Below, piece by piece: positions 12,251-30,689 of a DNA stretch of 46,862 nt. Source of the stretch: a virus; the IMG/VR virus record IMGVR_UViG_3300037247_000450, positions 1 to 46,862 of that record, one strand, 5' to 3'. The position numbers and the translations under genes are program-made. Position 1 is the stretch's first letter. Every line of letters begins with the position of its first letter. The notes under the pieces were generated by a model. It was not told the origin of the DNA. It saw only the letters and a list, made by a program, of their open reading frames with translations, and ran no database searches.

Positions 12251-12459
12251 GCGTCGAAGCCATAGTCATTGCCGTTGGGCTCGGCGTCAACCTCCTCACC
12301 GTGGTAGGCGTGGCTATGAAGCTCTCCGCTCGCTTCACCAAAGTAGAAGTCCTATGCAATCACGTCATCAAGAACCACATCCCCCACATCTACTCCGAGA
12401 TAAGCGAGCTGCGCGAACTCATCATCACCCACATCACCAAACAAGACCCATCTTCCTAG
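12247..12459 (+). CDS. Small membrane protein, holin candidate
   Basis: The protein has 70 residues. One membrane segment spans about residues 5-25 (AIVIAVGLGVNLLTVVGVAM), followed by a cytoplasmic-type tail with helical, charged residues. ATGA overlaps the end of the large ejection gene. It is the last plus-strand gene before a convergent junction; its final 26 bp overlap the end of a minus-strand gene. Size and topology fit class III-type holins or a small virion membrane protein. There is no adjacent endolysin. Confidence 0.6.
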   Translation: MSVEAIVIAVGLGVNLLTVVGVAMKLSARFTKVEVLCNHVIKNHIPHIYSEISELRELIITHITKQDPSS

Positions 12460-12622
12460 CACAATCGGGACAACAATCTTTGACTAACCTCACCATCCCA
12501 CCAGAAGGCTTCTCTGTACTTTGCAAATGATAATATAGTTTGCAATAGAGGTGACAAAAACCACATGGGCCATTACATTCATGCAGTATTGGTTCTGTAG
12601 TCCTAAGCCTGTAAGTCACCAT
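12434..12622 (-). CDS. W-tail zinc-finger microprotein 1
   Basis: The protein has 62 residues. CNGPCGFC lies near residue 16 and the family signature CPDCARKMGLVW is at the very C-terminus, so four or more Cys could bind one zinc in a treble-clef or ribbon arrangement. This is the last minus-strand gene and overlaps the convergent plus-strand gene by 26 bp. It begins MVTY, like the next two members, which marks a recent tandem triplet. The general C-x2-C...C-x2-C-A-R-E layout is also seen in the N-terminal region of McsA. The GLxW end is not something I recognise. Confidence 0.75.
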   Translation of the reverse strand: MVTYRLRTTEPILHECNGPCGFCHLYCKLYYHLQSTEKPSGGMVRLVKDCCPDCARKMGLVW

Positions 12623-12780
12623 AATAAGCCCTTCTCCCTAAGACAGCCTACGCACATCGTTTCTTGTTCCCCACCATTCTTGAGGACATGATAAATCTCC
12701 CCCACAAGACGATTCCCGCAGTTATGGCAGTGCGTACATAGCTCACACGGATGGCTCTCTTCAAGTTCGTAAGTTACCAT
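12616..12780 (-). CDS. W-tail zinc-finger microprotein 2
   Basis: The protein has 54 residues. It begins MVTYELEE and carries CELCTHCHNC near residue 12, with the terminal CVGCLREKGLLW. Its final TTATGGTGA contains the ATG of microprotein 1, giving a 7-nt overlap. The 3' part is nearly identical in DNA to that of microprotein 3, so the two are recent duplicates. Confidence 0.75.
   Translation of the reverse strand: MVTYELEESHPCELCTHCHNCGNRLVGEIYHVLKNGGEQETMCVGCLREKGLLW
12628..12656. repeat. 29-nt direct repeat, copy 1
   Basis: Identical over 29 nt to 12786-12814. Both copies encode the CVGCLREKG end of a W-tail gene. The 158-nt spacing equals the gene unit, so this is the scar of a tandem duplication. 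Confidence 0.9.
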
Positions 12781-12959
12781 AGCAGGCCCTTCTCCCTAAG
12801 ACAGCCTACGCACACCATAACGGACAGGTACTCATGCTCGTCCGGCAAATTACTCTTCTTCTCCAAATGATGAACAGTATGAAGGCCGTTGCGTTTGCAC
12901 CACTCACAATATCTACAAACGTCACAGGGTCTAGTATCCAGAACTCTGTAAGTTACCAT
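12774..12959 (-). CDS. W-tail zinc-finger microprotein 3
   Basis: The protein has 61 residues, begins MVTYRVLD and carries CDVCRYCEWC, with the terminal CVGCLREKGLLW. Its start lies 29 nt inside the end of the polymerase gene, and its Trp-stop codons contain the start of microprotein 2. Five or more Cys suggest one, perhaps two, metal sites. Confidence 0.78.
   Translation of the reverse strand: MVTYRVLDTRPCDVCRYCEWCKRNGLHTVHHLEKKSNLPDEHEYLSVMVCVGCLREKGLLW
12786..12814. repeat. 29-nt direct repeat, copy 2
   Basis: Second copy of the repeat at 12628-12656, located in microprotein 3. Confidence 0.9.
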
Positions 12960-15150
12960 AGTTCACACCTACCTTTGCCTTGACAGGCACCACCAACCCA
13001 CCCATCTCCTTGACGGGCTGTGTCATAATATCCTTGAGACGTGCGATTGTAGCTGTTGCCGTACCAACAGGTAGGCAATACACGAGCTCATCATGAACGA
13101 TGAGGATGGGAACCAGCCCTTCCGCCTCCCATATATCAAGAGCCCGCTGATTGACAATGTCAGCAGCAGTAGAGCACCCTTCATAATGACACCCCTTTTT
13201 CATTCTTGTATGGTCGTCTTGCGCGTATATATAACGAACTCGACCGAATGGGTTTCGCATAGTAATTTCACCAATGTGGAGTTGTCCCTTAATCCTTTTC
13301 TGCCAACTCTTAATGGCGGGGTAAGCCCCGTAATACGCACTTTGCAACCACAAAGCACGTGCGACATTAGGTCGCGTTCGAGCGCCGTATAGTCTCTCCG
13401 CAAGATTTTGAGGTGTTTCACCATAGTTCGTGGCGTGAATGGTCTTCTTACCTTCGTACCTCTCTTTGTCTGTGACATCATCGTACCTCTTGTTGTAGAT
13501 TCGACTCGCTGAGAGCCGGTGAAAGTCCATTCCGCTAGCAAAATCAGCCAACATCTGCTTGTCGCCAGCCAGCCACGCCACACATCTGTTCTCAATCTGT
13601 GAGAAGTCCAGCCCTACAATGACCATGCCTTCCGGGGCCACTATCATCCGTCTCAGTGATGGCGGGATATTCTGGAAGTTCGGCTCGCTAGACGAGAAGC
13701 GCGCAACGTCTGTACCCGTGACGTTGAACGTCGGGTGTACCTTGCTCTGCCCTAGCGGGAACCATGTGGTGATGGGCTTGACACCCAGCTCCTTGTAGTC
13801 AGCCAACTGCTCCATCAGCGGGTGCCGGTCAGCCTGCCTCTTGATAGTCACTTCCTTGGTGTCCTGCAGCGTAATCCCTTCCTCCTTGAAGAACTTTATG
13901 ACCTGCTTAGGCGAGTTGGGATTGAACGGGAAGTCATCCTTCAGCAACTGCTTATTGCCCTGCCACTCGCGGTGATAGCGCCTGACTGCTCTCAGGTCGA
14001 CATCAACTCCTCGCTCCCTCATCAGCACAGCCAACCTAGCTAACCTCTGCTGCTTCTCTACTAGGTGCCACTGTTTGGTGGTGTCGAGGTCGGCTTTGAG
14101 CTGGTCGTAGAGGTACCAGTTGTAGGCACAGTCTCGTCCATTGTACTCAAGTAGGTCTCCTTTATCGTCTTTCCAACCAGTGGTAGGACGATAGTACGAG
14201 ACGAGTGAACGGAGTCCGAGGAGACTAAGGTTGGCGAGGTGAGCATGGATGAGGTGCCCCACCACCTTAGTATCGAAAACCTGAGTAGGAGCATAACTAC
14301 TAGGCCACCTACCGAGAACGGGAAAGTCTGCGGAAATAATGTTGTGACCAATAAGAAGATTGCCGTCCCGAGCAAGATGCTGGGCCAGAAGAGTTTCGCC
14401 GATTGCCACATCGTAGGTTGAATACGCTTTGTCTGCTTCATACGCTACTCCTATACAAGAGATTTCCTTCGTCTTTCTATCCCACTCTAGGTCGAACACC
14501 ATCGGCCCGGCGCGGTCAGGCAGCATGCCCTTGACCACCGTGGGGTGCTTCAAGATGGATGGATTGGCATGAGCTGTGAGCAGGTTGTAGTGCTCACGTA
14601 TGGCGACGGGCAGCAGGTTGGGTTGACGCATCACCGCCGATGGGTGAAACGTGCAGCTCACTAGCTGTCCGGCCTGGAGGGTGACGTGCCCATGCCAATC
14701 CGAAATGCCTCTTAGTCCGAGTGTCTGCCCCAATGCTTTACTGCCAACCAACATGATAGGTACAGAGGCAGGTATGACCCTGTCGTATTGTCTACAATGC
14801 ATTTCAGCCTGAGCTTTATCAGTTCCCACAGGGTACGCTTCACCTTGCTTGTTCTTAGGGGGCAAGCAGCGCAGAGTATTGTCAAGATACACCTCCTCTC
14901 TCTTTAGACCAGTGGGGTTCAAGATGTTACGGAGCAGCCACCAGCCCGCCTTCCCGACGAACGGCTTGCCTTGCAGTACCTCGTTAATGCCGGGGGCCTC
15001 GCCTATTATGGCCATCTTTATCTTCGACCAGACCGGAGCAGGCTCCAGTACAAAGCCTTTGCCGACACCGTACAGCGGACAGCCCTTGCACGTGGCTGGC
15101 TGGCCCGTGCTGCCTGCCTTCGTGGCTAGCGGCATGACTAGAGCTACCAC
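12931..15150 (-). CDS. DNA polymerase (family A) fused to an N-terminal family 4 uracil-DNA glycosylase
   Basis: The protein has 739 residues in three parts. Residues 18-190 are a family 4 UDG: GEAPGINE and GKPFVGKAG at 50-69, HPSAVMRQP at 169, and Cys21, Cys24, Cys95 and Cys119 spaced as the 4Fe-4S ligands. Residues 215-345 are a DEDD 3'-5' exonuclease with Asp220, Glu222, Asp275 and YxxxD at 336-340. Residues 365-739 are the family A polymerase: motif A LDFSQIENR with Asp515, motif B KKTIHATNYG at 568-577, and motif C HDE at 686-688. The start is a GTG overlapping the Trp-stop of the W-tail gene upstream; ATG at codon 6 is an alternative. It is presumably the replicative polymerase. Confidence 0.92.
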   Translation of the reverse strand: MVALVMPLATKAGSTGQPATCKGCPLYGVGKGFVLEPAPVWSKIKMAIIGEAPGINEVLQGKPFVGKAGWWLLRNILNPTGLKREEVYLDNTLRCLPPKNKQGEAYPVGTDKAQAEMHCRQYDRVIPASVPIMLVGSKALGQTLGLRGISDWHGHVTLQAGQLVSCTFHPSAVMRQPNLLPVAIREHYNLLTAHANPSILKHPTVVKGMLPDRAGPMVFDLEWDRKTKEISCIGVAYEADKAYSTYDVAIGETLLAQHLARDGNLLIGHNIISADFPVLGRWPSSYAPTQVFDTKVVGHLIHAHLANLSLLGLRSLVSYYRPTTGWKDDKGDLLEYNGRDCAYNWYLYDQLKADLDTTKQWHLVEKQQRLARLAVLMRERGVDVDLRAVRRYHREWQGNKQLLKDDFPFNPNSPKQVIKFFKEEGITLQDTKEVTIKRQADRHPLMEQLADYKELGVKPITTWFPLGQSKVHPTFNVTGTDVARFSSSEPNFQNIPPSLRRMIVAPEGMVIVGLDFSQIENRCVAWLAGDKQMLADFASGMDFHRLSASRIYNKRYDDVTDKERYEGKKTIHATNYGETPQNLAERLYGARTRPNVARALWLQSAYYGAYPAIKSWQKRIKGQLHIGEITMRNPFGRVRYIYAQDDHTRMKKGCHYEGCSTAADIVNQRALDIWEAEGLVPILIVHDELVYCLPVGTATATIARLKDIMTQPVKEMGGLVVPVKAKVGVNYGNLQSSGY
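15128..15149. repeat. 22-nt direct repeat, copy 1 (true polymerase start)
   Basis: Identical over 22 nt to 15300-15321. This copy encodes the first residues of the polymerase (VALVMPL). Together the copies bracket one W-tail gene. Confidence 0.9.
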
Positions 15151-15287
15151 TTTAATCCTCGCTCCCTAGCGCACTCATCACAGAACCGCTCACCACTACC
15201 TCTTTCTCCATACCAGTGAACCTCTGGCCCCCAATGTCTACAGGCATCGCAGCGGGGATAGAAAATATCTCCAGGGTTATATGCCAT
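15144..15287 (-). CDS. W-tail zinc-finger microprotein 4
   Basis: The protein has 47 residues and starts at ATG 15287. CDACRHWG lies near residue 14 and the end is CDECARERGLKW. Its AAG-TGG-TAG end overlaps the GTG start of the polymerase. The frame extends upstream, but that extension runs antisense-like through the next gene and lacks family features. The gene lies exactly between the two 22-nt repeats. Confidence 0.72.
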   Translation of the reverse strand: MAYNPGDIFYPRCDACRHWGPEVHWYGERGSGERFCDECARERGLKW

Positions 15288-15299: not shown

Positions 15300-15321
15300 A
15301 GCGGCATGACTAGAGCTACCA
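15300..15321. repeat. 22-nt direct repeat, copy 2 (ghost polymerase start)
   Basis: This is a copy of the polymerase start. An ATG at 15322 followed by this copy would give an 11-residue peptide, MVALVMPLKRA, whose stop overlaps the start of microprotein 4. Confidence 0.85.
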
Positions 15322-15456
15322 TAACCAGGCTCTCTTACGGGCACAATCATCACAGAGGAAGACCCAATCGAACCTCCCTCTCTCCTCCCAAGCTGTGAGA
15401 CTCTCCACTTCGAGATAGGTCTCACAGTCCCGACAGTCCGCGCCGACGTGGTTCAT
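15316..15456 (-). CDS. W-tail zinc-finger microprotein 5
   Basis: The protein has 46 residues and starts at ATG 15456. CRDC lies near residue 8 and the end is CDDCARKRAWLW, a variant in which AWLW replaces GLxW. The Trp-stop TATGGTAG overlaps an ATG that opens only the 11-residue ghost of the polymerase start. Upstream is the RepA-like ATPase gene. Confidence 0.68.
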   Translation of the reverse strand: MNHVGADCRDCETYLEVESLTAWEERGRFDWVFLCDDCARKRAWLW

Positions 15457-15469
15457 GCTGGGGGTGTCT

Positions 15470-16213
15470 TTATACACGTTTGAATGTACCTTCCTTCTTC
15501 TGGAATTCCAGCTTTAGAAAGTCCTGGTCTATGGGCGAGCGGGTGGCGAATCGGAGAGAGATGTTATTGAACTGCCTAAAGTCTGGCTTCCATATCACGG
15601 CCAGACTATCTACGTCAGCGAACAGCACACCGGCCCCGCGCAGCCGTTCGGGTGACGAGAGCGTGCGATGCTCGCTAGTCTTGCCCATGTGGTGGATGAT
15701 GATGGAGGCGAAGTCATAGGTCTCCTGCATCTCTGATAGCTCCATCAGAAGAACTTTCATCTCGCTATTGGAGTTCTCTTCTATGCGGTGGAAGTTGGCT
15801 AGAGGGTCGAAGATGACTACGTGCGGCTTGGCCTCTTCGATGTGGCTGGCTATCAGGCCACGGCCAGACTTGGTGTCAAGCCTACAATCTAGGTCGCGGC
15901 TGGTAATCCAGAAGTTGTCAAGCACGCGCATGCCCTTGCGTGCTCCGTGTATGTCAGTGAGACGCTTGACGAGGCGTTCAGGCCCAACCTCCTGCTCTAT
16001 CAGGAGCACTCGCTTGGGTTCACTCACTGGAAAGGTGCCCATCACTAGCGAACCTTCGCAGAGAGAGTACGCGATGTTCAGGGCCAGCATGGACTTGAAG
16101 GACTTGGGGTCAGCAACTAGGAGCAACTTGCCTTTGCGGGGCAGGAGCGGCTTGATGTAGAAGAAGCCTGGCTTTATGACCTGGGTGATGAACGACTTGA
16201 AGACCGTCGCCAT
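15470..16213 (-). CDS. RepA-like / AAA_25-type replicative ATPase
   Basis: The protein has 247 residues with a RecA-like core. The P-loop region is LLVADPKSFKS (residues 31-41), where the usual Gly residues are replaced by Ala and Phe but Lys40-Ser41 remain. Walker B is HVVIFDP with Asp136. A sensor-like IIIHHMGKTSEH follows at about 170. This pattern fits RepA/DnaB-type helicase ATPases of phages and plasmids, which unwind DNA ahead of the polymerase encoded next door. Its start overlaps the Trp-stop of W-tail 6. Confidence 0.75.
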   Translation of the reverse strand: MATVFKSFITQVIKPGFFYIKPLLPRKGKLLLVADPKSFKSMLALNIAYSLCEGSLVMGTFPVSEPKRVLLIEQEVGPERLVKRLTDIHGARKGMRVLDNFWITSRDLDCRLDTKSGRGLIASHIEEAKPHVVIFDPLANFHRIEENSNSEMKVLLMELSEMQETYDFASIIIHHMGKTSEHRTLSSPERLRGAGVLFADVDSLAVIWKPDFRQFNNISLRFATRSPIDQDFLKLEFQKKEGTFKRV

Positions 16214-16426
16214 CTACCACACCAACCCAAAATGCCTAGCACAATCCATACAGAGATAAGGCCCATTAGCCGGGCGGAAGTGTTTAGACGACATCCACAG
16301 CGTTAACTTGGCAGGAGGGAACGGGACTTCTCTACAGCGGTCACATTTACCAGTGGGGGACTCTAATATATCTATATAACTCCCATAAAAAGCGACATAC
16401 TCTTTCAATGCGTTGGAATTGTCCAT
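16214..16426 (-). CDS. W-tail zinc-finger microprotein 6
   Basis: The protein has 70 residues. GGAG 5 nt upstream favours ATG 16426 over GTG 16432. CDRCREVP lies near residue 28 and the end is CMDCARHFGLVW. Its start overlaps the TGGTAA end of the 86-residue gene upstream, and its TGG-TAG runs into the ATGG of the ATPase gene. Confidence 0.75.
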   Translation of the reverse strand: MDNSNALKEYVAFYGSYIDILESPTGKCDRCREVPFPPAKLTLWMSSKHFRPANGPYLCMDCARHFGLVW

Positions 16427-16686
16427 TACCACTCCAATCCTATGCGTTGGAGAAAGTCCTTCTTATCCATCTCCACTCGCTTGCCGTCCTGGATGATGAC
16501 GATGGTGTCGGCTAGAGACACATCTAGCTCGAACCACTCCTTGCCTTCTATCTCATTGGTGGACTTACGAAACTCGGCCTTGAGGTCTGGCCATGATATG
16601 GTGTTAGGTTGGCCGGAAAACGATTGGCCTTGCCCAATGCCTATGAGGCCCCCCAGCCCGCCTGTGGTACTATTGTTGTCGGCCAT
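16426..16686 (-). CDS. Unknown protein ending in GLEW
   Basis: The protein has 86 residues. It has a Gly/Ser-rich N-terminal 30 residues, then a domain with acidic and beta-strand character (WFELDVSLADTIVIIQDGKRVEM). It has no Cys, yet it ends RIGLEW and so shares the last four residues of the W-tail family without the zinc motif. Its start overlaps the stop of clpP. Function unknown. Confidence 0.7.
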   Translation of the reverse strand: MADNNSTTGGLGGLIGIGQGQSFSGQPNTISWPDLKAEFRKSTNEIEGKEWFELDVSLADTIVIIQDGKRVEMDKKDFLQRIGLEW

Positions 16687-17273
16687 TACTCTATCACCCC
16701 GTCGATGAGATTCAATTCAAGGGCCTCTTCAGGAGAGAGCACCGCCTCTCTGCGCTCGATTAGCCCTTTCAATTTCTTCCGGGTCATGCCCGTGCGACCA
16801 GTGATGATGCTGTCGAGCGTGAGCTGTGTCTTTCGTATCTCCTCTTGCGTCTCCTCCAGCTTCGAGTAGGAGCCGATGTTCGCGGCAGATAACTCATGGA
16901 GGCCAATGGCACAGTGCCGAGTGGCGTAGCGTTTAGTGGCGGCTTGGAGGATGATAGCGCCCATGCTCATGCATTGACCTGTGGCGACAATGTGGATGGG
17001 CGTCTTGCGGACTCCGGTTATGGACTTGAGGAGGTCATAGATAGCTAGACCGTCGGCTACTAGACCACCTGGAGTGTTGAGAATAATATTGATGGGCTTC
17101 CTTGAGTCCTCTGCCAAGTACGAGAGGATGCGCGTCAAGTAGTATTGGACTTCAGAGTTGATAACTCCGGTGATGTAGACTTCGCGGCGGTCAATGGCCG
17201 AGCGGTCTATCATCTCGTGAATGGGCATCGAGGGGTTGGTTGAACGGCTCCTACGGCGTTTATATCTCGGCAT
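16686..17273 (-). CDS. clpP: ClpP-like serine protease
   Basis: The protein has 195 residues, the usual ClpP length. Counted from ATG 17273, which has AAGGAG 6 nt upstream (ATG 17294 is an alternative), the oxyanion segment NTPGGLVADG is at 66-75. The nucleophile Ser103 is in GQCMSMGAI and the base His126 in IGLHEL. In place of the catalytic Asp before the FLS-type block (Asp171 of E. coli ClpP) there is Glu176 (RREAVLS). Phage ClpP homologues often process capsids, but this one sits among replication genes and may act in host takeover. The N-terminus is very Arg-rich. Confidence 0.88.
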   Translation of the reverse strand: MPRYKRRRSRSTNPSMPIHEMIDRSAIDRREVYITGVINSEVQYYLTRILSYLAEDSRKPINIILNTPGGLVADGLAIYDLLKSITGVRKTPIHIVATGQCMSMGAIILQAATKRYATRHCAIGLHELSAANIGSYSKLEETQEEIRKTQLTLDSIITGRTGMTRKKLKGLIERREAVLSPEEALELNLIDGVIE

Positions 17274-17583
17274 TCTCATCTCCTTTTCGGTCATCTAATT
17301 CCGGGTGTGTCTCTTCATACTCCATCAGCGTGAGGGCAGCCCAAGCCACACTAGCTAGATGGTGCTGCCCATCTTTGGGGTCATACCGCTCACCACCCCA
17401 CCAGTCCCACGCATGACGCATCATAGCACCAAAGACACGGCCCCACTTGATACCCTTCTCCCAATTCCTATCGTCATACTTGGCAGCCCCAATGGTATAG
17501 ACCTCGGCTACCTTGAACAGCGGCTTGACAGGTATCAGGTCAAACCTCGCCTTGCCGGTGTCGTCCTTCCTACCTTGCATCAT
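17260..17583 (-). CDS. dATP/dGTP diphosphohydrolase N-terminal-domain protein
   Basis: The protein has 107 residues. It shows the family pattern KARFDLIPVKPLFKVAEVYT, IGAAKYDDRNWEKG, a central MRHAWDWWGGE and HHLASVAWAAL. This matches the small phage family annotated as the N-terminal domain of dATP/dGTP diphosphohydrolases (formerly DUF5664), related to MazG-like nucleotide pyrophosphatases. The start is one of two adjacent ATGs at 17583 and 17580, overlapping the upstream gene. A role in adjusting purine dNTP pools is inferred from the family. Confidence 0.75.
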   Translation of the reverse strand: MMQGRKDDTGKARFDLIPVKPLFKVAEVYTIGAAKYDDRNWEKGIKWGRVFGAMMRHAWDWWGGERYDPKDGQHHLASVAWAALTLMEYEETHPELDDRKGDENAEI

Positions 17584-18222: not shown

Positions 18223-18410
18223 TTGCGCTCCTTTAGCTTATCGCCTAGTGTCTTATGCATGTGGCCCTGCTGCTTGAGATATAAGATGGCGGAGTCAGCC
18301 ATCAACGAGTAGAAGTCTCGGCAGCCCTGAGCACATGCATCCCATAGCTGAGCACGGTGATGCCTGTCATGCAAGTGACGAGCTAGCTTGTGAGTGATTG
18401 CCTTTACCAT
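18219..18410 (-). CDS. Hypothetical small basic protein
   Basis: The protein has 63 residues, rich in His, Lys and Arg, probably all-helical. It contains CAQGC near residue 26 but lacks the W-tail. Its start lies in the TATGGTAA end of W-tail 7 and its stop in the ATGA start of the next gene. Function unknown. Confidence 0.65.
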   Translation of the reverse strand: MVKAITHKLARHLHDRHHRAQLWDACAQGCRDFYSLMADSAILYLKQQGHMHKTLGDKLKERK

Positions 18411-18619
18411 ATGACCCCTAACTCTCGCCCGTGGTATTCACACACAACCCAGGAATCAGGATAGTGGGTGTCAAGCATTTCTCTTGTCATTCTTGAACAA
18501 ATATCACACTCACCCTTATCCCATTCTAGGGTATCCGTAAGAGTAACCAAGACAGAAGTCTTTGCTATCTGTTCTCTGATACGGGCGTATGTAGAGTCAG
18601 TCAGTTTAATCTCTACCAT
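18404..18619 (-). CDS. W-tail zinc-finger microprotein 7
   Basis: The protein has 71 residues. A helical N-terminal half is followed by CDICSRMT near residue 39 and the end CEYHGRELGVIW, so the ligand set is Cys3-His. The 5' end overlaps the Trp-stop of W-tail 8, making a direct pair. Confidence 0.8.
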   Translation of the reverse strand: MVEIKLTDSTYARIREQIAKTSVLVTLTDTLEWDKGECDICSRMTREMLDTHYPDSWVVCEYHGRELGVIW

Positions 18620-18933
18620 AGCCAGCCATCCTTGCGTGCATGGTCAACGCACAGCCGCACATGCTCGACCTTCTTAGCATCCCACAGCGCATGATGCAGG
18701 GTGTCATAAAGACAGTTCATTGGATACATCAAGTCAGCGACCTCCCACGCATTCAAGCTCAACGCTTTGGCAATGAGCTTCGCATCTACTGAGTAGTCGC
18801 CTGTCGCTTCGTCAGAGATGATGCGCTCGCCGGTCATCTGATTGTTCACCAGGAGGATGCGGCCTTGCTCTTGACACGCTTTGTCACCCAATGCCTCCCA
18901 CTCCTTGATGCGGTCATGCCACGCTACTGCCAT
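18613..18933 (-). CDS. W-tail microprotein 8 (long form)
   Basis: At 106 residues this is the longest family member. It ends CVDHARKDGWLW but lacks a classical upstream CxxC (single Cys near residues 20 and 74), so zinc binding is less certain. It has a WHDRIKEWEALG helix at the N-terminus. AAGGAGAGACAGAC precedes the ATG, a leader shared with several other genes here. Confidence 0.78.
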   Translation of the reverse strand: MAVAWHDRIKEWEALGDKACQEQGRILLVNNQMTGERIISDEATGDYSVDAKLIAKALSLNAWEVADLMYPMNCLYDTLHHALWDAKKVEHVRLCVDHARKDGWLW

Positions 18934-18945: not shown

Positions 18946-19143
18946 TTACCAAATCAGATTGTAGTGGCGGGCATGTTCCTCGCACACCCAAATATCCTTC
19001 TGGATGCCTTTAGGTACTGAAGCCTCCCCATACCATCTGATGTCACAAGCGATGTCGCATCTCTCCTGCAATGTCACCCTGGGGTTAGTCTGCAATCTCA
19101 AGGTGCCAGTGGGGAGCGTTATCTCGATTTCTTTCGTCGTCAT
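18946..19143 (-). CDS. W-tail zinc-finger microprotein 9
   Basis: The protein has 65 residues from ATG 19143, chosen because AAGGAG is 5 nt upstream; GTG 19149 is an alternative. The upstream pair is spaced CDIAC and the end is CEEHARHYNLIW (Asn replaces Gly). The stop is TGG-TAA-GGAG, so the stop codon merges into the ribosome-binding site of the next gene. Confidence 0.76.
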   Translation of the reverse strand: MTTKEIEITLPTGTLRLQTNPRVTLQERCDIACDIRWYGEASVPKGIQKDIWVCEEHARHYNLIW

Positions 19144-19152
19144 GGACACTCC

Positions 19153-19374
19153 TTACCACCGCAGTCCAAACTCTCTCTGATGGTCTACGCAAAGCCAAGA
19201 CATAATGCTCATTGCCCGTGCGCCGCTGGTTTTGGTGGGCGAACAAAAGTCACAGTTGGAAACCAATACCCCATTAACATCAAACTGCTCCCGCTCGAAG
19301 TAGTTAGTCGGCAATTTCCAGATGCCAGTGAGGCGCTTTATCTCGGTTTCGCTCATCGAAAATCGCAAGGTCAT
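19153..19374 (-). CDS. W-tail zinc-finger microprotein 10
   Basis: The protein has 73 residues. CDFC lies near residue 41 and the end is CVDHQREFGLRW. The start is uncertain: AAGGAG sits just 1 nt before ATG 19374, while TTG at codon 3 and ATG at codon 7 have longer spacing. It overlaps the endolysin 3' end by 71 nt, the largest overlap in this region. TGG-TAA-GGAG again forms the next ribosome-binding site. Confidence 0.73.
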   Translation of the reverse strand: MTLRFSMSETEIKRLTGIWKLPTNYFEREQFDVNGVLVSNCDFCSPTKTSGARAMSIMSWLCVDHQREFGLRW

Positions 19375-19861: not shown

Positions 19862-20101
19862 TTACCACAATAGATTCAACTCCCTAGCGTGCTTCTCGCA
19901 GAGGAAGGCTCCGTGCCAATCAGTTTCTCCGTCTCTTAGCACCCGTAGTCCCCCCTGCCCACTTACTCGACAGTCGCTTCCGGTAGGTTTATGCGTACAG
20001 TGGCAGTAACCATACCTGTCATTCGGCCCTACTAAACCCCCCAACGCACGCAGCGGGAGAGTATACTCCCTTATATATTCATGGTCATAGGGTCTCGCCA
20101 T
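19862..20101 (-). CDS. W-tail zinc-finger microprotein 11
   Basis: The protein has 79 residues. CHCTHKPTGSDC lies near residue 33 and the end is CEKHARELNLLW. The middle has a Gly-rich loop. Its ATG directly follows the TAG of the exonuclease gene (TAGATGG). The stop merges into the AAGGAGACAGAC leader of the next gene. Confidence 0.77.
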   Translation of the reverse strand: MARPYDHEYIREYTLPLRALGGLVGPNDRYGYCHCTHKPTGSDCRVSGQGGLRVLRDGETDWHGAFLCEKHARELNLLW

Positions 20102-22909: not shown

Positions 22910-22932
22910 AAATATAAGTTTCAGGCGACGAA

Positions 22933-23340
22933 TTATTCGTAGACCTGTAGGCGTATCTGGACTACTCCCTGCTTGACTCGGAATTTGCATGTGTATTTAC
23001 TCACTCCGTTAATGCCCAACCAATAGTCGGGCCGTTCCTCTTTCCATGATAGTTGGAAGGCTATGCGGATGGGGCTGAAGATGGTAGAGGGTGGAATCAT
23101 CACCTTGAGGACGGGGTGCGGGTTGGCCATGATGTTCCAGTCCAGTATCTGACAGGCATACTCGTGTACGCCGTCGTCACGCCAGACGGAGATGTTCCGC
23201 AGCACCAAGTCGAAGGGCACCCACCTCTTGTGACTCTTGCCACTGTCTTGCATGTGACTCTCTTTCGGTTCGTCCTGTGCCGCCACACCCATAGCCAGGA
23301 CGAGACAGCTAATCAACGTCAAGTATTTCAAGCGATACAT
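22933..23340 (-). CDS. Secreted/periplasmic protein of unknown function
   Basis: The protein has 135 residues. A Sec signal peptide is clear at residues 1-22 (MYRLKYLTLISCLVLAMGVAAQ), with cleavage plausible after AAQ or AMA-like positions. The mature part is beta-rich with two Cys. It overlaps the end of the RlpA-like gene by 32 nt, so the two exported proteins are probably made together and act on the host envelope. Confidence 0.7.
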   Translation of the reverse strand: MYRLKYLTLISCLVLAMGVAAQDEPKESHMQDSGKSHKRWVPFDLVLRNISVWRDDGVHEYACQILDWNIMANPHPVLKVMIPPSTIFSPIRIAFQLSWKEERPDYWLGINGVSKYTCKFRVKQGVVQIRLQVYE

Positions 23341-23722
23341 AAGCTACTCCTTGTTCTTTGAATCCCAACTCCTCCGCTACCCTCTCACTCACGTCCACTA
23401 TACGTCGCTGCTTACACGGATACCAATAGCTCCCCTCGTACTCACAGTAGGGGCCTCGGTCGGTTACTTTGGCCGTGAGACTATCACCAGTTTGACGCAC
23501 CACAATCCGAACGAGAGTGCCGAAAGCAAGGTCACGATGGGCGAGTGTGTACTCACGCCCGTCATAAGTAGTGCCACTAGCAGTAAGCCTTCCAATGTAC
23601 TGAGTACCGTACCAGCTCGCGTATCCATTATCTATCTCCTTCCACTTTGGTTCTTCGATGGGCGGTAGTGTGCCGCCAGTGTGTGGTAGCAGCATGAGCA
23701 GCAGTACCAACCACCTTACCAT
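23309..23722 (-). CDS. RlpA-like double-psi beta-barrel protein
   Basis: The protein has 137 residues from ATG 23722, which lies in the Trp-stop of W-tail 16. A signal peptide spans about residues 1-18. GYASWYG (33-39), LTASGTTYD, LAHRDLAFGTLVRI with His62, and TDRGPY with Asp88 are the conserved RlpA/DPBB blocks, and there is no SPOR domain. Bacterial RlpA is a lytic transglycosylase acting on denuded peptidoglycan. A phage-encoded exported form suggests envelope remodelling or lysis. Confidence 0.8.
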   Translation of the reverse strand: MVRWLVLLLMLLPHTGGTLPPIEEPKWKEIDNGYASWYGTQYIGRLTASGTTYDGREYTLAHRDLAFGTLVRIVVRQTGDSLTAKVTDRGPYCEYEGSYWYPCKQRRIVDVSERVAEELGFKEQGVAYVSLEILDVD

Positions 23723-23898
23723 AGCAGCCCCATCTTCCGTGTACAATCAGAGCATGCAAGTGTCCCCTCTCCGGTACGAAAGAACTCAATATTAGTAACG
23801 TCGGGGTCAGTGGTAAGCCAATATAATTCGTGGTCTTTAGTTCCCTGACAAAGCCAGCAAGACCCTAAGCTTAATAAGTAGCGCCTGATTACCCTAAT
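23716..23898 (-). CDS. W-tail zinc-finger microprotein 16
   Basis: About 60 residues. CWLC lies near residue 14 and the end is CSDCTRKMGLLW. The start is unclear: no ATG, GTG or TTG occurs in frame after the end of the ATPase gene. The coordinates given use an ATT that overlaps the ATPase stop. ATG 23964 and ATG 24018 lie inside the ATPase gene and would add residues unlike the family. Confidence 0.6.
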   Translation of the reverse strand: MRVIRRYLLSLGSCWLCQGTKDHELYWLTTDPDVTNIEFFRTGEGTLACSDCTRKMGLLW

Positions 23899-24631
23899 GT
23901 ATAGCCGCTTGGTACTTGGCCCAGAGTTGCTTGAGGTCGGAGGTCTCTTCGTCTGAGAAGGCATTGGTCTTATCCTTTGGCAAGCGGTTGCCTGCGAAGA
24001 TGCGGCGACTGGTGTCACGGCGGGTGCGGAGCTTGAAGGTGGGCGAGCCGAGACAGTAGAAGATGAACGAGAACTTGCTTGTTATCAGGGACATAGTGGA
24101 GGGGGGAAGGTCGGGCTTAATCCACGCCTGCTTGAAGTCATCTTCAAGCGACCGCTCCAAGGCAGTCACTATCAGGTGATAGTCACCTTCGAGCAGAGCT
24201 TCGAGTGAGTTCCGTGCGTGGTCTTTGATGGCCTTGTAGACTTGACGGCCATCCTTTATCTCGTTGCGGAAGCGAGTCTCATAGAAGTTGATAAGCTCCG
24301 TGTAGTCATCAATGACTAGGGTGTTCCACTCGCCTGAGAAGAACTGACGAGGCGCGTCAAGTACATGGTCTACCTCTCTCGCTGTCCGTACTCTCACGTA
24401 GTCTATGCCTAGCTTCTTGAGGTGGGCTAGCTGCTCTTCGGGTTGGGTGCTGACTACCCGGATGAGGGCAGGCTCGACGATGCTGGTGGCACAGGTGGTC
24501 TTGCCGCTCTTGGTCTCGCCGAACAAGAGGATGTGCGCGTGAGCCTGGTCTAGCTCACTGGTGTTCTTGATAGCCAGTGACAGTGGCGTGCCTACCGCTG
24601 AGCTGGCTTGTGGCATAATTAGCTGTGACAT
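23894..24631 (-). CDS. Sak4-like / AAA_24 RecA-fold ATPase
   Basis: The protein has 245 residues. Walker A is GETKSGKTT (38-46) and Walker B WNTLVIDDYTE with Asp108 and Asp109. The size and order match the AAA_24 phage nucleotide-binding family, which includes Sak4-type single-strand annealing proteins. With the Cas4-like nuclease upstream and the SSB-like protein downstream it would form a recombination module. It is expressed from its own promoter, with AAGGAG 5 nt before the ATG. Confidence 0.78.
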   Translation of the reverse strand: MSQLIMPQASSAVGTPLSLAIKNTSELDQAHAHILLFGETKSGKTTCATSIVEPALIRVVSTQPEEQLAHLKKLGIDYVRVRTAREVDHVLDAPRQFFSGEWNTLVIDDYTELINFYETRFRNEIKDGRQVYKAIKDHARNSLEALLEGDYHLIVTALERSLEDDFKQAWIKPDLPPSTMSLITSKFSFIFYCLGSPTFKLRTRRDTSRRIFAGNRLPKDKTNAFSDEETSDLKQLWAKYQAAIH

Positions 24632-24684: not shown

Positions 24685-24882
24685 CTACCAAACTAGGTCA
24701 TACTCCCGACCATGTTCAGCACAGACTTCCGGCAAAAACTTCGAGCCGTGGCTTGCTAACTCTTCCTTGCACATCCACCAGTTAGTCATCTTCTCTTTAT
24801 GACACACATCACAGACTGTCTCATCTACAAGCCGAAACCCAACCTCACCCACAAACTTTACCCATCTCTCAACGTCTAGCAT
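24685..24882 (-). CDS. W-tail zinc-finger microprotein 17
   Basis: The protein has 65 residues. CDVCHKEK lies near residue 24, with an additional Cys near 38, and the end is CAEHGREYDLVW. A 3-nt gap separates it from the previous stop. It is the last gene before a promoter. Confidence 0.77.
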   Translation of the reverse strand: MLDVERWVKFVGEVGFRLVDETVCDVCHKEKMTNWWMCKEELASHGSKFLPEVCAEHGREYDLVW

Positions 24883-24885: not shown

Positions 24886-25017
24886 TCACCATATCAGGCC
24901 GTGCTTGCGAGCACAGTCCATGCAAAGCCACGGATAGTCTAAGCTATCATCCAAAAGTTGTATGTAGGAGAATGGATAAGGCACAGCCCGCTTGCAGCAT
25001 TGAGCTTGCCACATCAT
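24886..25017 (-). CDS. W-tail zinc-finger microprotein 18
   Basis: The protein has 43 residues from ATG 25017 (a second ATG at 25014), preceded by CAGGGATG. CCKRAVPY lies at residue 8 and the end is CMDCARKHGLIW. A longer frame to 25140 overlaps the nuclease gene by 104 nt and is Ser/Ala-rich without family features, so I reject it. Confidence 0.68.
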   Translation of the reverse strand: MMWQAQCCKRAVPYPFSYIQLLDDSLDYPWLCMDCARKHGLIW

Positions 25018-25036
25018 CCCTGGGATTGCTCGGTCG

Positions 25037-25843
25037 CTAGTCTGAAGCAACACGAAGGATTGCGAGGTGCTCTTCGCGTTGCTTGAAGCCGCTGGTGTCT
25101 TGCTCCGGTCTGCTGATGCCACAGATTTTGCCATACTCACACTTCTCCTTGTTCATGCAAGGCCATGAGTTCTCAGAGTGGGGCCACGGCTGGTCTATGC
25201 CGAAGGTACGGCGCATGAACTCTATCATCTCGCAGGTCTGATGGACAGCCAGCCGCATCAACTCCAGTTGGTACTCGGTACGCTTGACCACCAGCTCCCA
25301 TATGACGGGCGGCGAGGACTCTACAACAGTTCTCACAAGCAGGCCGAGCGGATGGTAGCCCAGAGCTTGAGCACCTATCAACTCGAACTCTGCCTGCTTG
25401 CGAGTTGCCCATTGGGCCGAGATTTTAGCAAAGGTATTACGCGAGTTGGTGGTCTTGACCTCACCCACCCACTGGCGTCCATCTATGTTTAGTATTTGGT
25501 CTATCTTGCCACAGATGGAGTGTGGTGAGTTGGGCAGTTGTTGAAGGAACTCCGGCTCGACAGCTAATACTACCGGCCCACTTGGATTGTAGCGTTGGAG
25601 CCAGTGGGCGAACATGCGCTTGGCTGCGGCTATAGCCTTGAGGTCTTGCACTTCACGAGCCACTAGCAGGTCTATCTCGCCAGCCTTGCGGCCATTGGAG
25701 TGGTACTCAAGCATGAGGTGGAAGGCTATGCCACGTTGGAGGTAGTAGTTGGGCGTGGCGGGGGAGAGGTTCAGCTCGTAGTGGATGCGGTACTTCTCCA
25801 TGTTGCGGTGGAAGGCATCATACCTGGAGAAGTCCAGATTCAT
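25037..25843 (-). CDS. Cas4-like PD-(D/E)XK exonuclease
   Basis: The protein has 268 residues. RGIAFHLMLE (His42), GKIDQI with Asp115 and GEVKTT with Glu128-x-Lys130 are the RecB/Cas4 nuclease motifs. CMNKEKCEYGKIC near the C-terminus (Cys229, Cys235, Cys241) recalls the Fe-S cluster of Cas4 and AddB, though the distal N-terminal Cys is not obvious. It probably resects DNA ends for the Sak4-like protein. Its promoter lies so close that the transcript would begin at or near the ATG. Confidence 0.8.
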   Translation of the reverse strand: MNLDFSRYDAFHRNMEKYRIHYELNLSPATPNYYLQRGIAFHLMLEYHSNGRKAGEIDLLVAREVQDLKAIAAAKRMFAHWLQRYNPSGPVVLAVEPEFLQQLPNSPHSICGKIDQILNIDGRQWVGEVKTTNSRNTFAKISAQWATRKQAEFELIGAQALGYHPLGLLVRTVVESSPPVIWELVVKRTEYQLELMRLAVHQTCEMIEFMRRTFGIDQPWPHSENSWPCMNKEKCEYGKICGISRPEQDTSGFKQREEHLAILRVASD

Positions 25844-25880: not shown

Positions 25881-26063
25881 CTACCAGATAAGACCATACC
25901 CTCTGGTACAATCTACACAGTAAAAGCCTAACCACCGATTCTTCTCTCCATATAGAACGTAGATATTCGTGCCAGTGGGTTGTGGTAGTCCACAGCCGGG
26001 GCAAGGCCACCCGTCGTTGCCTTCCGTAACCCTTCCCTTATACGTAGCTACCTTAGCTACCAC
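25881..26063 (-). CDS. W-tail zinc-finger microprotein 19
   Basis: The protein has 60 residues. CPGCGLPQ lies near residue 21 and the end is CVDCTRGYGLIW. It is preceded in coupled fashion by W-tail 20 and 21 and followed by a promoter. The start MVAKVATYKGR lies in the previous Trp-stop. Confidence 0.78.
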   Translation of the reverse strand: MVAKVATYKGRVTEGNDGWPCPGCGLPQPTGTNIYVLYGEKNRWLGFYCVDCTRGYGLIW

Positions 26064-26242
26064 AGATAGCCTCTCTGTTCAGCACATGACCTGCACATAA
26101 TCTTCATCTCAACCGTCACATAGTCCCAACGCTTACTCCAGGGCCAACGAACCTTACATTCAGGACACTCCCAACCTAAGTCAGTCTCTACTGTTGATAA
26201 CCAGTAGTCATCTGGCCTATAAGAACTTACCCTGACTACCAT
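26057..26242 (-). CDS. W-tail zinc-finger microprotein 20
   Basis: The protein has 61 residues from ATG 26242, in the TATGGTAG end of W-tail 21. CPECKVRWPW lies near residue 26 and the end is CRSCAEQRGYLW. It has the same MV-start and strand pattern as its two neighbours, consistent with local duplication. Confidence 0.77.
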   Translation of the reverse strand: MVVRVSSYRPDDYWLSTVETDLGWECPECKVRWPWSKRWDYVTVEMKIMCRSCAEQRGYLW

Positions 26243-26442
26243 ATCAAGTTCCTCGCTCTGGCGCATGACTCACATATGACTGGCTCTTGCCCCTCCCAGT
26301 TTATGAGCACAACATACGTGATGGGCTGACCATATGAATACTCTTTACTGCATACAGGACAGAGCCAGTGCTGGTTGAATCGGTCTTTCCATGTCGATAT
26401 GTGGGTATGCACCGAGTAACTTAGCTCTCCCTTACGAGACAT
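26236..26442 (-). CDS. W-tail zinc-finger microprotein 21
   Basis: The protein has 68 residues. CPVCSKEYSYG lies near residue 28 and the end is CESCARARNLIW. Its start overlaps the end of the metallopeptidase/VWA gene by 11 nt. It is first of a run of three members. Confidence 0.78.
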   Translation of the reverse strand: MSRKGELSYSVHTHISTWKDRFNQHWLCPVCSKEYSYGQPITYVVLINWEGQEPVICESCARARNLIW

Positions 26443-27619
26443 GCACCACCCCTATCAAGTTATGGACTTTAGGCGGGGGCTGCACATCCTCCACCGTGAG
26501 TACCACCAGGGTAGGCACGGCATAGCTGGTCAGCCACTCCACGTACCCATCAGTCACGATGATGTTAAACATGCAAGCATCCTTCTTGGCCTGTCTATCT
26601 ACCTCGTGGATGTCGGTGCCCCCGCTGCCCTCACGAGCTATCTTCTTGATTTGACTAGCGGTAGTCAAGCGCAGCCGCTTGATGATGGCGCAGGTGAAGT
26701 GATAGACGAGTAACTCTTTGAAGCCTAGCTGTTGGGTGGCTGAGTGAACGGTGCCTAGTATCTGAGTGAACATCTCATCACAGACGGAGCCACTGTTGTC
26801 AAGCGACAGCGCAAACCTCCGAGCGATGGTGTCGCTGGCTAGGTTGGGGAGTACCATGTTGCGGCCATCGCACATGGCGCGGCGGTAGATGGAACGCATG
26901 TCGAAGTGCTTGCAGTTGGTGTCGAGCGCAGTCAAGTAGCGGGCCAGTTGGCGACGCCAATCAGGTGGCTTGGTCAGACCCATCCGGTCGAGCAAGAGTT
27001 GACGTAGCTCGCCCACTTGGTCGCCCGGCGGCTTACCACCAGCACCTTCTTGAAGAGTCTTGACAGCGGCCTCGCGAGCCTGCTCAGCTATCATCTGAGC
27101 CACGCCTGTCTGTGGCTTGCCGTCTCCATCCTTGCCATCACCACCACACAAGCATAGCACTGGAGGCAGCTTGTTGGCGGGGTCTTTCTTCAACTCCCTG
27201 TATATCTCTTCGGTGGAGAGCATCTTCCATACCTCTTTAGGCTTGACACCGCCTACCGGAGTACTCCAACCAGACAGGCTCTCGACTAAGGTGTTGACGG
27301 CGTGCTCACAGGCTGTGGAGTAGAGGTCATGGCGATAGTCGTCACCCTCTTGGCGCTTCATAGCTTGGCCCCGGCGAAGGTGGTCGCATAGGAAGTGGGC
27401 TGCTTCATGGCCGAGGATGAAAGTAGCATCGGCCTCTTTACAAGTGGCCATGAACTTCGGGTTGACTTTAATCTTGAGGGTGTTGTTGTTGATGCCAATG
27501 GTGCCAACAGACTCATCCTCTTCATAGGTTGCCGCGTAAAGAATCGCGTCGAATGCTGGAATCGCTTTACAGACCCCTCGCCGCCACTTCTTAATCTGCT
27601 CCATCAGGTCATGGGTCAT
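26432..27619 (-). CDS. Metallopeptidase-VWA-like protein (DUF2201 type)
   Basis: The protein has 395 residues from ATG 27619, which has GGAGGAG 8 nt upstream. GHEAAHFLCDHL gives an HExxH zinc site (His71, Glu72, His75) with a downstream CEHAVNTLVE helix as possible third ligand. A Gly/Asp-rich linker (about 160-200) leads to a VWA-like domain with LDNSGSV (Asp274-x-Ser-x-Ser). This is the two-domain architecture usually encoded next to MoxR-type AAA ATPases, as here. Such pairs remodel or activate protein complexes. The target in this phage is unknown. Confidence 0.8.
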   Translation of the reverse strand: MTHDLMEQIKKWRRGVCKAIPAFDAILYAATYEEDESVGTIGINNNTLKIKVNPKFMATCKEADATFILGHEAAHFLCDHLRRGQAMKRQEGDDYRHDLYSTACEHAVNTLVESLSGWSTPVGGVKPKEVWKMLSTEEIYRELKKDPANKLPPVLCLCGGDGKDGDGKPQTGVAQMIAEQAREAAVKTLQEGAGGKPPGDQVGELRQLLLDRMGLTKPPDWRRQLARYLTALDTNCKHFDMRSIYRRAMCDGRNMVLPNLASDTIARRFALSLDNSGSVCDEMFTQILGTVHSATQQLGFKELLVYHFTCAIIKRLRLTTASQIKKIAREGSGGTDIHEVDRQAKKDACMFNIIVTDGYVEWLTSYAVPTLVVLTVEDVQPPPKVHNLIGVVHVS

Positions 27620-27738
27620 CGGAACAGCTCCTCCCATAGTAATTTCATAGCTGATACCACAAGTGTCAGTATGAGACAGGCGAGGGCCACCGCTATAATA
27701 GCGACAGCAAGCAATAGAATCTCTATTGTCATAGGCAT
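27616..27738 (-). CDS. Small membrane peptide inside the MoxR-VWA operon
   Basis: The protein has 40 residues, nearly all one membrane segment (IEILLLAVAIIAVALACLIL) followed by KLLWEELFR. Its ATG lies 2 nt after the MoxR stop (TAGTATG) and its TGA overlaps the ATG of the metallopeptidase gene, so it is coupled to both. It may anchor the pair at the membrane. Confidence 0.65.
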   Translation of the reverse strand: MPMTIEILLLAVAIIAVALACLILTLVVSAMKLLWEELFR

Positions 27739-27739
27739 A

Positions 27740-28828
27740 CTACTCCCCCTTGTACTTTTCTAGGAAAAGATGGTGTAGCTTTTTTATCTTTTCGTCTTTC
27801 AGGAGTTCCGTTGTTGGAATCCTATACGTTAGGAGTCGTCCGACGATGTAGCTCTTCTCGTCACCGATTTGCTTCTTGGCTAGAGTGAGGAACTTGTAGG
27901 CTTGAGGTATCTTGGTGATTTGCCCGGCGGTGGTGAGATAGACGGCGAGCAGAAGATTGGGGTCATCAGTCTCGACTGCCTTGCCATTGAGGAGCTGTTC
28001 GATTAGCTCGCTGTAGTCGTTACGGAATTGGTAGTAGCGTTGGTACTTGCGGCCAGCGTTCTCGCCGACGAACATGGCGGCGTCAGTGGGGTCGGCTGCT
28101 TTGTGGTTGAGGGCGTGAGAGAAGTTAGTCCATGCGCGGGGGTCAGCTACCTTGAGCAGGTCAGTGTCCTTGAAGTCATCATGCTGGTTCAGTATGTCAG
28201 GAGCTAACTGGATGGCCGTGATGACTGACTCATGGACGCCGTGGTCGAGTGCCCAATGCAGCCAAGAGCGGACGGACGTTTCAATGTGCATGATGATGGG
28301 ACGAGAGGCGAACGCCTTGTCCATCTCGAAGGTGTACTGTGCGTGCCAGGCGTTGCCAGCACCTATCACATAGGTATCCTCCAGGTCAAAGCCATTGAGC
28401 TTCTTCTCACTGAGCACCTGAAGCATGCCTGACTGAGCGATGGGCTGGATGCGGTCAATCTCATCAAGGAACAGGATGCGAGGGCCATCCTTGCCCATCA
28501 CGTCGTCTACTAGGGGTGGCTTGGCGAAGTACATGGTGCGAGTGGCGGGGTCAATGCCAACACCGCCCGTGTCAAGCGGATGCACCTGACTCAAGTGCCT
28601 GACGCTGAGAGAGTTGACGATGCCCTTCTCCTTCAGTTTGTGGAATAGGGAGTACACTCCCTCTGTCTTGCCGATGCCGACCGCCCCAATGGCTATCATG
28701 GCAGGGCACTTGGCGGGCGGCAGGTTGCTAATCATCCGCTCGACCACCGCTTGATAGCCGGACACCGTGGTCTGATACAGGTTGTGCGTGGTCAGTGTGT
28801 CTTGCTGTTCTTTCTTCTTAGTTGCCAT
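27740..28828 (-). CDS. MoxR-like AAA+ ATPase
   Basis: The protein has 362 residues. Walker A is GAVGIGKTE (48-56) and Walker B RILFLDEIDR with Asp122-Glu123. A sensor 1-like VIGAGNAW follows, then an Arg finger region (DKAFASRPI). The MoxR order is clear and the C-terminal third is a helical lid domain. AAGGAG precedes the ATG. With the downstream metallopeptidase-VWA gene it forms a classic ATPase plus VWA pair. Confidence 0.85.
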   Translation of the reverse strand: MATKKKEQQDTLTTHNLYQTTVSGYQAVVERMISNLPPAKCPAMIAIGAVGIGKTEGVYSLFHKLKEKGIVNSLSVRHLSQVHPLDTGGVGIDPATRTMYFAKPPLVDDVMGKDGPRILFLDEIDRIQPIAQSGMLQVLSEKKLNGFDLEDTYVIGAGNAWHAQYTFEMDKAFASRPIIMHIETSVRSWLHWALDHGVHESVITAIQLAPDILNQHDDFKDTDLLKVADPRAWTNFSHALNHKAADPTDAAMFVGENAGRKYQRYYQFRNDYSELIEQLLNGKAVETDDPNLLLAVYLTTAGQITKIPQAYKFLTLAKKQIGDEKSYIVGRLLTYRIPTTELLKDEKIKKLHHLFLEKYKGE

Positions 28829-28851: not shown

Positions 28852-29070
28852 TTACCAAATGAAACCCAACTCTCGGCAGCAGTTTGCACAAATCCATTGA
28901 GCACCCCCCTCACCATCGGCTGGCCCAACTAGATACATCGTGCTACATCCCGACCAAGATTGCTTACATCCGACTTCACGGAAGGGGCCGATAGTTCCAC
29001 ACACCCACTGTTCAGGCATAGGCTCCCACGATTGTTGTGTGGCACTCTCGTAATACTTCATCTTTACCAT
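28852..29070 (-). CDS. W-tail zinc-finger microprotein 22
   Basis: The protein has 72 residues. Three single Cys (near 24, 35 and 42) take the place of a tight CxxC, and the end is CANCCRELGFIW. The wide spacing suggests an altered metal site. Its start lies in the TGGTAA end of W-tail 23. Confidence 0.76.
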   Translation of the reverse strand: MVKMKYYESATQQSWEPMPEQWVCGTIGPFREVGCKQSWSGCSTMYLVGPADGEGGAQWICANCCRELGFIW

Positions 29071-29282
29071 GCGACACCTAGCTCTCTGCCGTGGTCAGGG
29101 CATAGGTTAGGCCGACACCCATCGGCATTGAGTTTGTTAGGATAGACTTCTACAAGCCAGCGTCTCAGTGATGCAATAGAATCATCTACGTGGCATATAT
29201 CACACCCCGCACCAATCTCCACCCCTTCCTCTGTGTAGAGTGTGATATACTGAAGCATTAATTCTCTTTGCGGGGCCGTCAC
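29064..29282 (-). CDS. W-tail zinc-finger microprotein 23
   Basis: The protein has 72 residues from GTG 29282, in GTGA overlap with the previous stop. ATG 29258 is an alternative, with AAAGAG upstream. CDICHVDD lies near residue 27 and the end is CPDHGRELGVAW, preceded by an extra Cys. Confidence 0.76.
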   Translation of the reverse strand: MTAPQRELMLQYITLYTEEGVEIGAGCDICHVDDSIASLRRWLVEVYPNKLNADGCRPNLCPDHGRELGVAW

Positions 29283-29730: not shown

Positions 29731-29781
29731 GCGCAGCATCTAAGTATAAAGACGCAAACTAATTTCCTGTTCGGAGGCACC

Positions 29782-30210
29782 ATGAAAGAGGTAGGATGGA
29801 GAAGTCAAGAGGACTGGCGCTGGTATCTGATGACAGCAAACGCTTTAGCTCGACGTGGCAGACGCAGGCCACTCAACCCGGTGGTCACTCGGCATAAGAA
29901 GGCCGTGTCCAATTTCAACAGCCGAGCACGCAAGCACAAGCAGCCCCCACTCACCCTCAAGCAGTACGAGTCCGTGATTACAGGCAAATGTCTTAGATGT
30001 GGCGTGCAAGAGACACCGGACTGCATACTAGGGGTTGACCATGTGGTTCCCATCTGGTACGGGGGTAGTTCAGAGACATACAATCTCCAAGCGTTGTGTT
30101 GGCCGTGCAACAAAGGTAAGGGTGTTAGTGTCATAGACTATCGCTGCTCCCCACCACGTCAGTATCTCATAGATGACAAGACAATGCAAGTGGTAGTTAA
30201 GGAACTCTAG
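29782..30210 (+). CDS. HNH endonuclease on the opposite strand
   Basis: The protein has 142 residues. A basic N-terminal half precedes the HNH fold: CLRC (70-73), GVDHVVP with Asp86-His87, Asn101 in YNLQALCWPCN, and the second Cys pair at 106-109. It is the only plus-strand gene inside the 20-kb minus-strand block, as expected of a free-standing homing endonuclease that inserted between two W-tail stretches. CGGAGG precedes the ATG. Confidence 0.85.
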   Translation: MKEVGWRSQEDWRWYLMTANALARRGRRRPLNPVVTRHKKAVSNFNSRARKHKQPPLTLKQYESVITGKCLRCGVQETPDCILGVDHVVPIWYGGSSETYNLQALCWPCNKGKGVSVIDYRCSPPRQYLIDDKTMQVVVKEL

Positions 30211-30267
30211 CCCTCGACACCGCCCCCTCCGCTGACGCTACGGGGTGCTCCTACTGGTAAGCATGCC

Positions 30268-30480
30268 TCACCAGAGCCAACCCTTCTCATAACAACAAGC
30301 CTCACAGTAGATAAAGGCAGTATCTTCCCCACTTATAGAGCTAGGCACTCGATAGGCTCGGTCTGACTTAAGATAATCCCTCTTATTCTCAAGATAGCCT
30401 GCCCAACAGTGGCCTTGGTTATGACGATGCTGTTGATATAGGCTATCATAGCGATAGAACTCTAATCTCTCAGCTACCAT
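30268..30480 (-). CDS. W-tail zinc-finger microprotein 24
   Basis: The protein has 70 residues from ATG 30480, in the TATGGTAG end of W-tail 25. It has one Cys near residue 24 flanked by His residues (HRHNQGHC), which could replace a CxxC, and ends CEACCYEKGWLW. Confidence 0.73.
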   Translation of the reverse strand: MVAERLEFYRYDSLYQQHRHNQGHCWAGYLENKRDYLKSDRAYRVPSSISGEDTAFIYCEACCYEKGWLW

Positions 30481-30689
30481 AGCCAGCCTCGCTCTCGACA
30501 GCACTCCTCACACCACCAATCATGTATTACCCCCTCTTCTTGTGGTACACCCGCCACGAGATAGAGCTTCATGCTTACCTTGGAAGTGTGCATCATAGGT
30601 GTCTGCCAATCAGGCGCACCTCTACACCACGCCTTAGTATGAGGGTTTTTCGTATAGAAAACTGAGATTTGCTGGACTATGTGAGCCAT
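30474..30689 (-). CDS. W-tail zinc-finger microprotein 25
   Basis: The protein has 71 residues and ends CEECCRERGWLW, sharing the CC and GWLW variants with W-tail 24. It has only one upstream Cys (near 22), so metal binding may differ. This pair forms a subfamily. Confidence 0.73.
   Translation of the reverse strand: MAHIVQQISVFYTKNPHTKAWCRGAPDWQTPMMHTSKVSMKLYLVAGVPQEEGVIHDWWCEECCRERGWLW

Follow-up and report, generated by a model that had tools for sequence, protein, structure and literature searches.

A lineage-specific family of small, tryptophan-terminated, zinc-finger-like proteins interleaved with the early genes of uncultured tailed phages

Results

The window analyzed here, the whole stretch of 46,862 nucleotides held as IMG/VR virus record IMGVR_UViG_3300037247_000450, is from a tailed phage. 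Its late genes, among them terminase and portal, lie on the plus strand. The early genes lie on the minus strand and encode a DNA polymerase, a separate exonuclease subunit, a Sak4-like annealing protein, a ClpP protein, an AAA+ ATPase and a DUF2201 protein. Interleaved with these early genes, between 12434 and 30689, are 25 small minus-strand open reading frames (ORFs), all of those reported by an earlier note on this DNA, and in each of them (25/25) a Trp codon directly precedes the stop codon. The earlier note gave their length as about 40 to 106 residues; the upper limit holds, and after correction of several starts to internal ATGs (26057-26242, 30268-30480 and 15144-15287, with others) the 25 members span 47 to 106 aa. 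They are distributed over 13 slots between early genes and are absent from the late strand, and together they take up approximately 5.1 kb of the 47-kb genome. In some places, as in the ClpP-to-NDT block and the AAA+/DUF2201 pair, no member separates neighboring early genes. The DNA polymerase (12931-15150) and the exonuclease subunit (20102-20704) are encoded apart, with members around both. No tRNA gene that could hint at the host was found. The two ends of the window carry a diverged duplicate gene block (2-823 and 1463-1890 versus 44597-45430 and 46434-46862, with 80% and 92.5% DNA identity), which represents either paralogous late-region genes or a repeated module.

The members of the window share the C-terminus C-x2-[C/H]-x-R-x2-G-L-x-W-stop. 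It is carried by single members, such as those at 19862-20101 (ending LCEKHARELNLLW), 20714-20884 (LCTDHARELDILW) and 24886-25134 (LCMDCARKHGLIW), and by runs of members, such as 18404-18619 (VCEYHGRELGVIW), 18613-18933 (LCVDHARKDGWLW; at 106 aa the longest), 18946-19149 (VCEEHARHYNLIW) and 19153-19374 (LCVDHQREFGLRW). Further members end in the same way at 16214-16426 (YLCMDCARHFGLVW), 28852-29070 (ICANCCRELGFIW) and 30268-30480 (YCEACCYEKGWLW). An upstream C-x2-[C/H]-type pair, which the earlier note had ascribed to most members, is present in 20 of the 25, and five have no clear one. Across the 110 distinct members from all carrier genomes, Trp is last in 110, Cys occupies position -11 in 106, Arg position -6 in 78, and Gly, Asn or Asp position -3 in 100.

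A 38-bit tail pattern has six matches in the window and none in 100 shuffles. Counting members by their Trp ending is partly circular, and to limit this we left the last residue out of a tail profile and ran it over all six reading frames of seven genomes with a cut-off of at least 8 bits: 96 matches end exactly at Trp and six end elsewhere. A chance origin of the tail is excluded by these two results. Of the six other matches, two are likely to be real relatives, one is in the relative G16 and three look like chance. The two relatives, at 13408 of G2 (L010) and 12407 of G8 (L043), are zinc-finger-like ORFs placed just before the AAA+ ATPase gene, in which GL[AK]W is followed by six more residues, KVEDAY. 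Judged by sequence, they are likely the only members that do not end in Trp.

The family was found in eight IMG/VR contigs by the Trp-ending pattern or the profile, with 25 copies in the window and seven to 27 in each of the seven others. The carriers are a group of uncultured bacterial viruses with up to approximately 27 copies per genome. Four contigs with a polymerase about 86% identical carry nine to 27 members. Three more carriers, including G10 (polymerase 51% identical, eight members), emerged when all viral contigs were scanned with a pattern; a second pattern scan yielded no new carrier contigs. Some carriers are near-duplicates (G1 with G2, G3 with G8). Core gene order is kept among the relatives while the contents of the slots change, and gain and loss between slots are frequent. 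The array is absent from G16, whose polymerase is 50% identical, and no member was found in 29 further records of the capsid-linked broader phage family, many of them fragments. A tblastn search of isolate phages with two members gave chance matches only. One pattern scan of cellular genomes returned two loci, about the chance expectation, one of them without a matching ORF. A lone ORF at 4051-4302 of L030, an Acidobacteria MAG, ends in YVCEDCARKNDLIW and adjoins phage-like genes (phrog_464, HNH); its sequence makes it a plausible lone member and a possible cellular or prophage relative, and a chance match is also possible.

The family has no specific match in Pfam, PHROGs, NCBIfam, PADLOC, PDB, BFVD or isolate phages, and no description of such a family was found in the literature. 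In line with the earlier note, which did not recognize the terminus, it does not correspond to an annotated family in the databases searched. Neither the ClpX-type zinc-binding domain (PF06689) nor the TraR/DksA-type zinc finger (PF01258) is among the matches listed for the members (25 of 26 families, E ≤ 1). The TIGR04104 cxxc_20_cxxc zinc finger of NCBIfam matches two members (best E 0.002), and DUF7455 gives a weak match (E 0.1). Three members match DUF7685 (PF24734) with a best E of 0.066, below the gathering score. PADLOC gives two single weak matches (E 0.02 and 0.06), which do not identify a known antiphage defense family, and solved structures give generic sequence matches only, to eukaryotic Cys-rich finger arrays. 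Small treble-clef and zinc-knuckle domains (the ClpX N-domain zf-C4_ClpX, TraR/DksA-type fingers, DUF7455 and DUF7685) resemble the members in their two short pairs of Cys, of which the second, in the members by prediction, opens a helix. The members differ from them in the fixed C-terminal G-L-x-W, in their multicopy array and in having no significant match in Pfam, PHROGs or NCBIfam.

While the end is fixed, the N-terminal parts, hereafter fronts, are highly diversified, as the earlier note had described. The fronts fall into 16 clusters of two or more and 34 singletons, whereas a full-length comparison unites 106 of the 110 proteins in one cluster. The codons of the tail vary synonymously: TGT and TGC are about equally used for Cys -11, all four codons for Gly -3 and six for Arg -6. 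Selection therefore acts on the protein. In most orthologous pairs the tail has a dN near 0 with clear dS, and the fronts reach a dN of 0.2 to 0.9. Whole-gene dN/dS between orthologs has a median of 0.24, compared with 0.13 for neighboring genes (p = 0.0006). Values are below 1 in orthologous pairs, and the few very close pairs with front dN at or above dS are too few for a claim of positive selection. The earlier note had asked whether purifying selection on the Cys and Trp codons might be absent; both residues are under purifying selection.

A feature of the array that the earlier note missed is the way in which members are joined to the genes that follow them. The following gene has its start codon within the junction of Trp and stop codons, RTGGTRR, in 62 of 128 copies. 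The RTG is formed from the wobble base of the penultimate codon and the Trp codon; a protein started there begins Met-Val. In the window, ATGGTGA of the member at 12616-12780 (MCVGCLREKGLLW), ATGGTAA of 12774-12959 (VCVGCLREKGLLW) and GTGGTAG of 26057-26242 (MCRSCAEQRGYLW) overlap the next start, and starts are likewise overlapped by 22629-22793 (SCLDCARELGLLW), 22787-22990 (WCRECCQREGLLW), 23716-23964 (ACSDCTRKMGLLW), 26236-26442 (ICESCARARNLIW), 29064-29282 (LCPDHGRELGVAW) and 30474-30689 (WCEECCRERGWLW). The DNA polymerase itself starts at a member junction in the window, where its GTG at 15150 lies inside the GTGGTAG overlap of the member at 15144-15287 (FCDECARERGLKW), and does so also in G2, G4 and G10.

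It could be argued that the members end in Trp only because a nucleotide-level junction is selected for translational coupling, and the frequency of starts at the junction would fit, as would the strongly selected A or G at the wobble base (A at the wobble position of codon -1 in 72/110 members versus a background of 20%, p = 1e-24). That explanation is extremely improbable and is already largely refuted by the members that stand before a promoter or at the end of the early strand. In the window they include 12434-12622 (DCCPDCARKMGLVW), the last gene of the early strand; 22184-22378 (FCEEHARELNLLW), with a sigma-70-like promoter directly after its stop codon; and 24685-24882 (VCAEHGREYDLVW) and 25881-26063 (YCVDCTRGYGLIW), where the promoter begins 2 nt past the stop. 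Among the 17 such members the RTG has been lost in ten (Fisher p = 1e-5 for loss) and the Trp kept in all. Furthermore, the preceding C-x2-[C/H]..G-L is kept as protein and not as codons. Because uncoupled members often lose RTG yet keep Trp, the Trp is constrained in the protein, and we infer that it is simply exploited as a start codon. The tight coupling to core genes, including the DNA polymerase in the four genomes named, could also mean that the members act as leader cistrons: their zinc-finger products would bind the mRNA that encodes them and so control how the downstream core gene is translated; we regard this as quite improbable, since many members precede another member or a promoter rather than a core gene.

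The polymerase slot preserves a possible record of how members are acquired. The member at 15316-15477, which has a GTG start and ends in LCDDCARKRAWLW, carries at its end (15300-15321, minus strand) TGGTAGCTCTAGTCATGCCGCT, an additional 22-nt duplicate of the polymerase start. Next comes the member at 15144-15287, and behind it the genuine polymerase start, where these 22 nt occur again. In this slot, G3 carries a member of the first kind alone and G4 one of the second kind alone. We read the extra copy as a recombination scar: the window resembles a G3-like left part joined to a G4-like right part, in the single case read, by eye. New copies would then be gained by illegitimate recombination between related phages. 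The scar, together with the frequent gain and loss between slots, is also what would be expected if the members were selfish or neutral cassettes that serve no function in the phage and pile up because their similar ends recombine. This is very improbable given the purifying selection on the tail and, more weakly, on the fronts, and given the share of the genome that is spent on them.

An AlphaFold2 model of the member at 16214-16426 has a mean pLDDT of 88.7, with helices at residues 4-14, 38-44 and 60-65. The last helix starts with the second Cys pair; mean pLDDT is 92 over the final ten residues. The fold is provisional because the best of the five models is clearly above the others, which range from 75 to 65. 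A Foldseek search with the member model found no significant match in the PDB or BFVD. A structural role would explain much of the tail, since it is predicted to be ordered and the step from Gly, Asn or Asp to Leu fits a helix C-cap.

One further early protein of the same region ends in G-L-E-W without being a member, and it was absent from the earlier list. The gene at 16426-16686, between clpP (16686-17294) and the member at 16214-16426, encodes a protein of 86 aa that has no Cys and ends RIGLEW; the next member starts in its GTGGTAA junction. The G-L-E-W end is present in all six genomes where the protein was found, down to 30% identity, and the Gly and Leu codons vary. The Trp alone is weak evidence, because in each of the six its codon also provides the start of the next gene; the conservation of the preceding G-L-E has no explanation in the junction. 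Among the early genes of these genomes that are not members, this is the only one with a conserved terminal Trp. The protein is poorly modeled (mean pLDDT 57 from five sequences), as strands followed by a helix. The adjacent ClpP-like protease retains the Ser (GQCMSMGA) and His (IGLHE) motifs, and in an alignment read by eye the catalytic Asp position appears to fall on Leu (KGLIERRE), similarly in the relatives. Its activity is uncertain on this sequence basis, and a literature search on phage ClpP found nothing relevant. The 26432-27637 protein is assigned by PHROGs as an HNH endonuclease (phrog_1314) and by Pfam as a DUF2201 metallopeptidase with a VWA-like domain, and its gene adjoins that of the AAA+ ATPase (AAA_5; 27740-28828).

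In G16 the array, the 86-aa protein, the AAA+ ATPase and the DUF2201 protein are absent together, and ClpP is kept. The capsid, portal and terminase of G16 are closer to those of the window than are those of G10, which has the array and all three proteins. Co-occurrence of the array with these three proteins is therefore suggestive, with one negative genome.

Discussion

The stop-start junction, the G-L-x-W end on a Cys-free protein beside ClpP, the 22-nt scar and the joint absence of the array and of three protein genes from a relative are new here. With moderate confidence, and from sequence comparison, we predict that the members, a lineage-specific expanded family of small early proteins, are rapidly turning-over effectors built on a zinc-helix-Trp scaffold. 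Each member would be a compact, probably zinc-binding fold, formed by the upstream Cys pair and by the C-x2-[C/H] with which a short C-terminal helix begins. The helix would be capped by Gly, Asn or Asp, with the Leu and terminal Trp closing the domain. The variable fronts would most likely be interaction surfaces against different host or defense targets, and the phages would keep them as numerous genes that can be stacked and are soon replaced. Every member ends in TGG-stop, and the terminal codon can double as the RTGG start of the following gene, so that members and core genes could be joined head to tail with translation kept; a role of the junction in the spread of the family is probable.

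The best reading of the tail is that it is mainly structural. A shared docking tail is possible, and ranks second. The G-L-x-W terminus would then be a docking signal for one shared partner, such as the AAA+/DUF2201 proteins or ClpP, with the zinc fingers as adaptors bringing targets. The end of the 86-aa protein and the missing genes of G16 would agree with this, but we consider it unlikely: the tail is predicted to be ordered rather than free, its G/N/D-then-hydrophobic step fits a helix C-cap, the Trp codon of the 86-aa protein carries the next start throughout, and G16, the one negative genome, keeps ClpP. Invariant aromatic last residues across a protein set are also found in the C-terminal docking tails of bacterial SSB (SSB-Ct) and T7 gp2.5. 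The member tail has a net charge near zero (a mean of -0.26 over the last 12 residues) and is predicted to be folded, unlike an acidic, disordered tail of the SSB-Ct kind. A more elaborate and rather improbable scenario is an adaptor arsenal, in which some two dozen zinc-finger proteins with differing target-binding fronts would use the tail, shared with the 86-aa protein, to feed captured host proteins to one phage machine (the AAA+ ATPase with the DUF2201 protein, or ClpP), RTGGTRR slotting in new adaptors.

Phage host-takeover modules, such as that of Bacillus phage SPO1, contain many small early genes. The array resembles them in consisting of many small, early, fast-evolving genes to which no role is assigned. 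The SPO1 module is a block of unrelated genes, whereas here one paralogous family is scattered between replication genes. If the members act on host or defense targets, then a 47-kb phage would have turned one paralogous scaffold into a large and diverse set of effectors, and such a set would offer a ready-made panel in the search for new host vulnerabilities. The stop-start junction would be a simple way to insert small genes between essential ones and leave the latter unharmed. Because an unrelated protein, that of 86 aa, has the tail as well, the docking idea can be tested directly.
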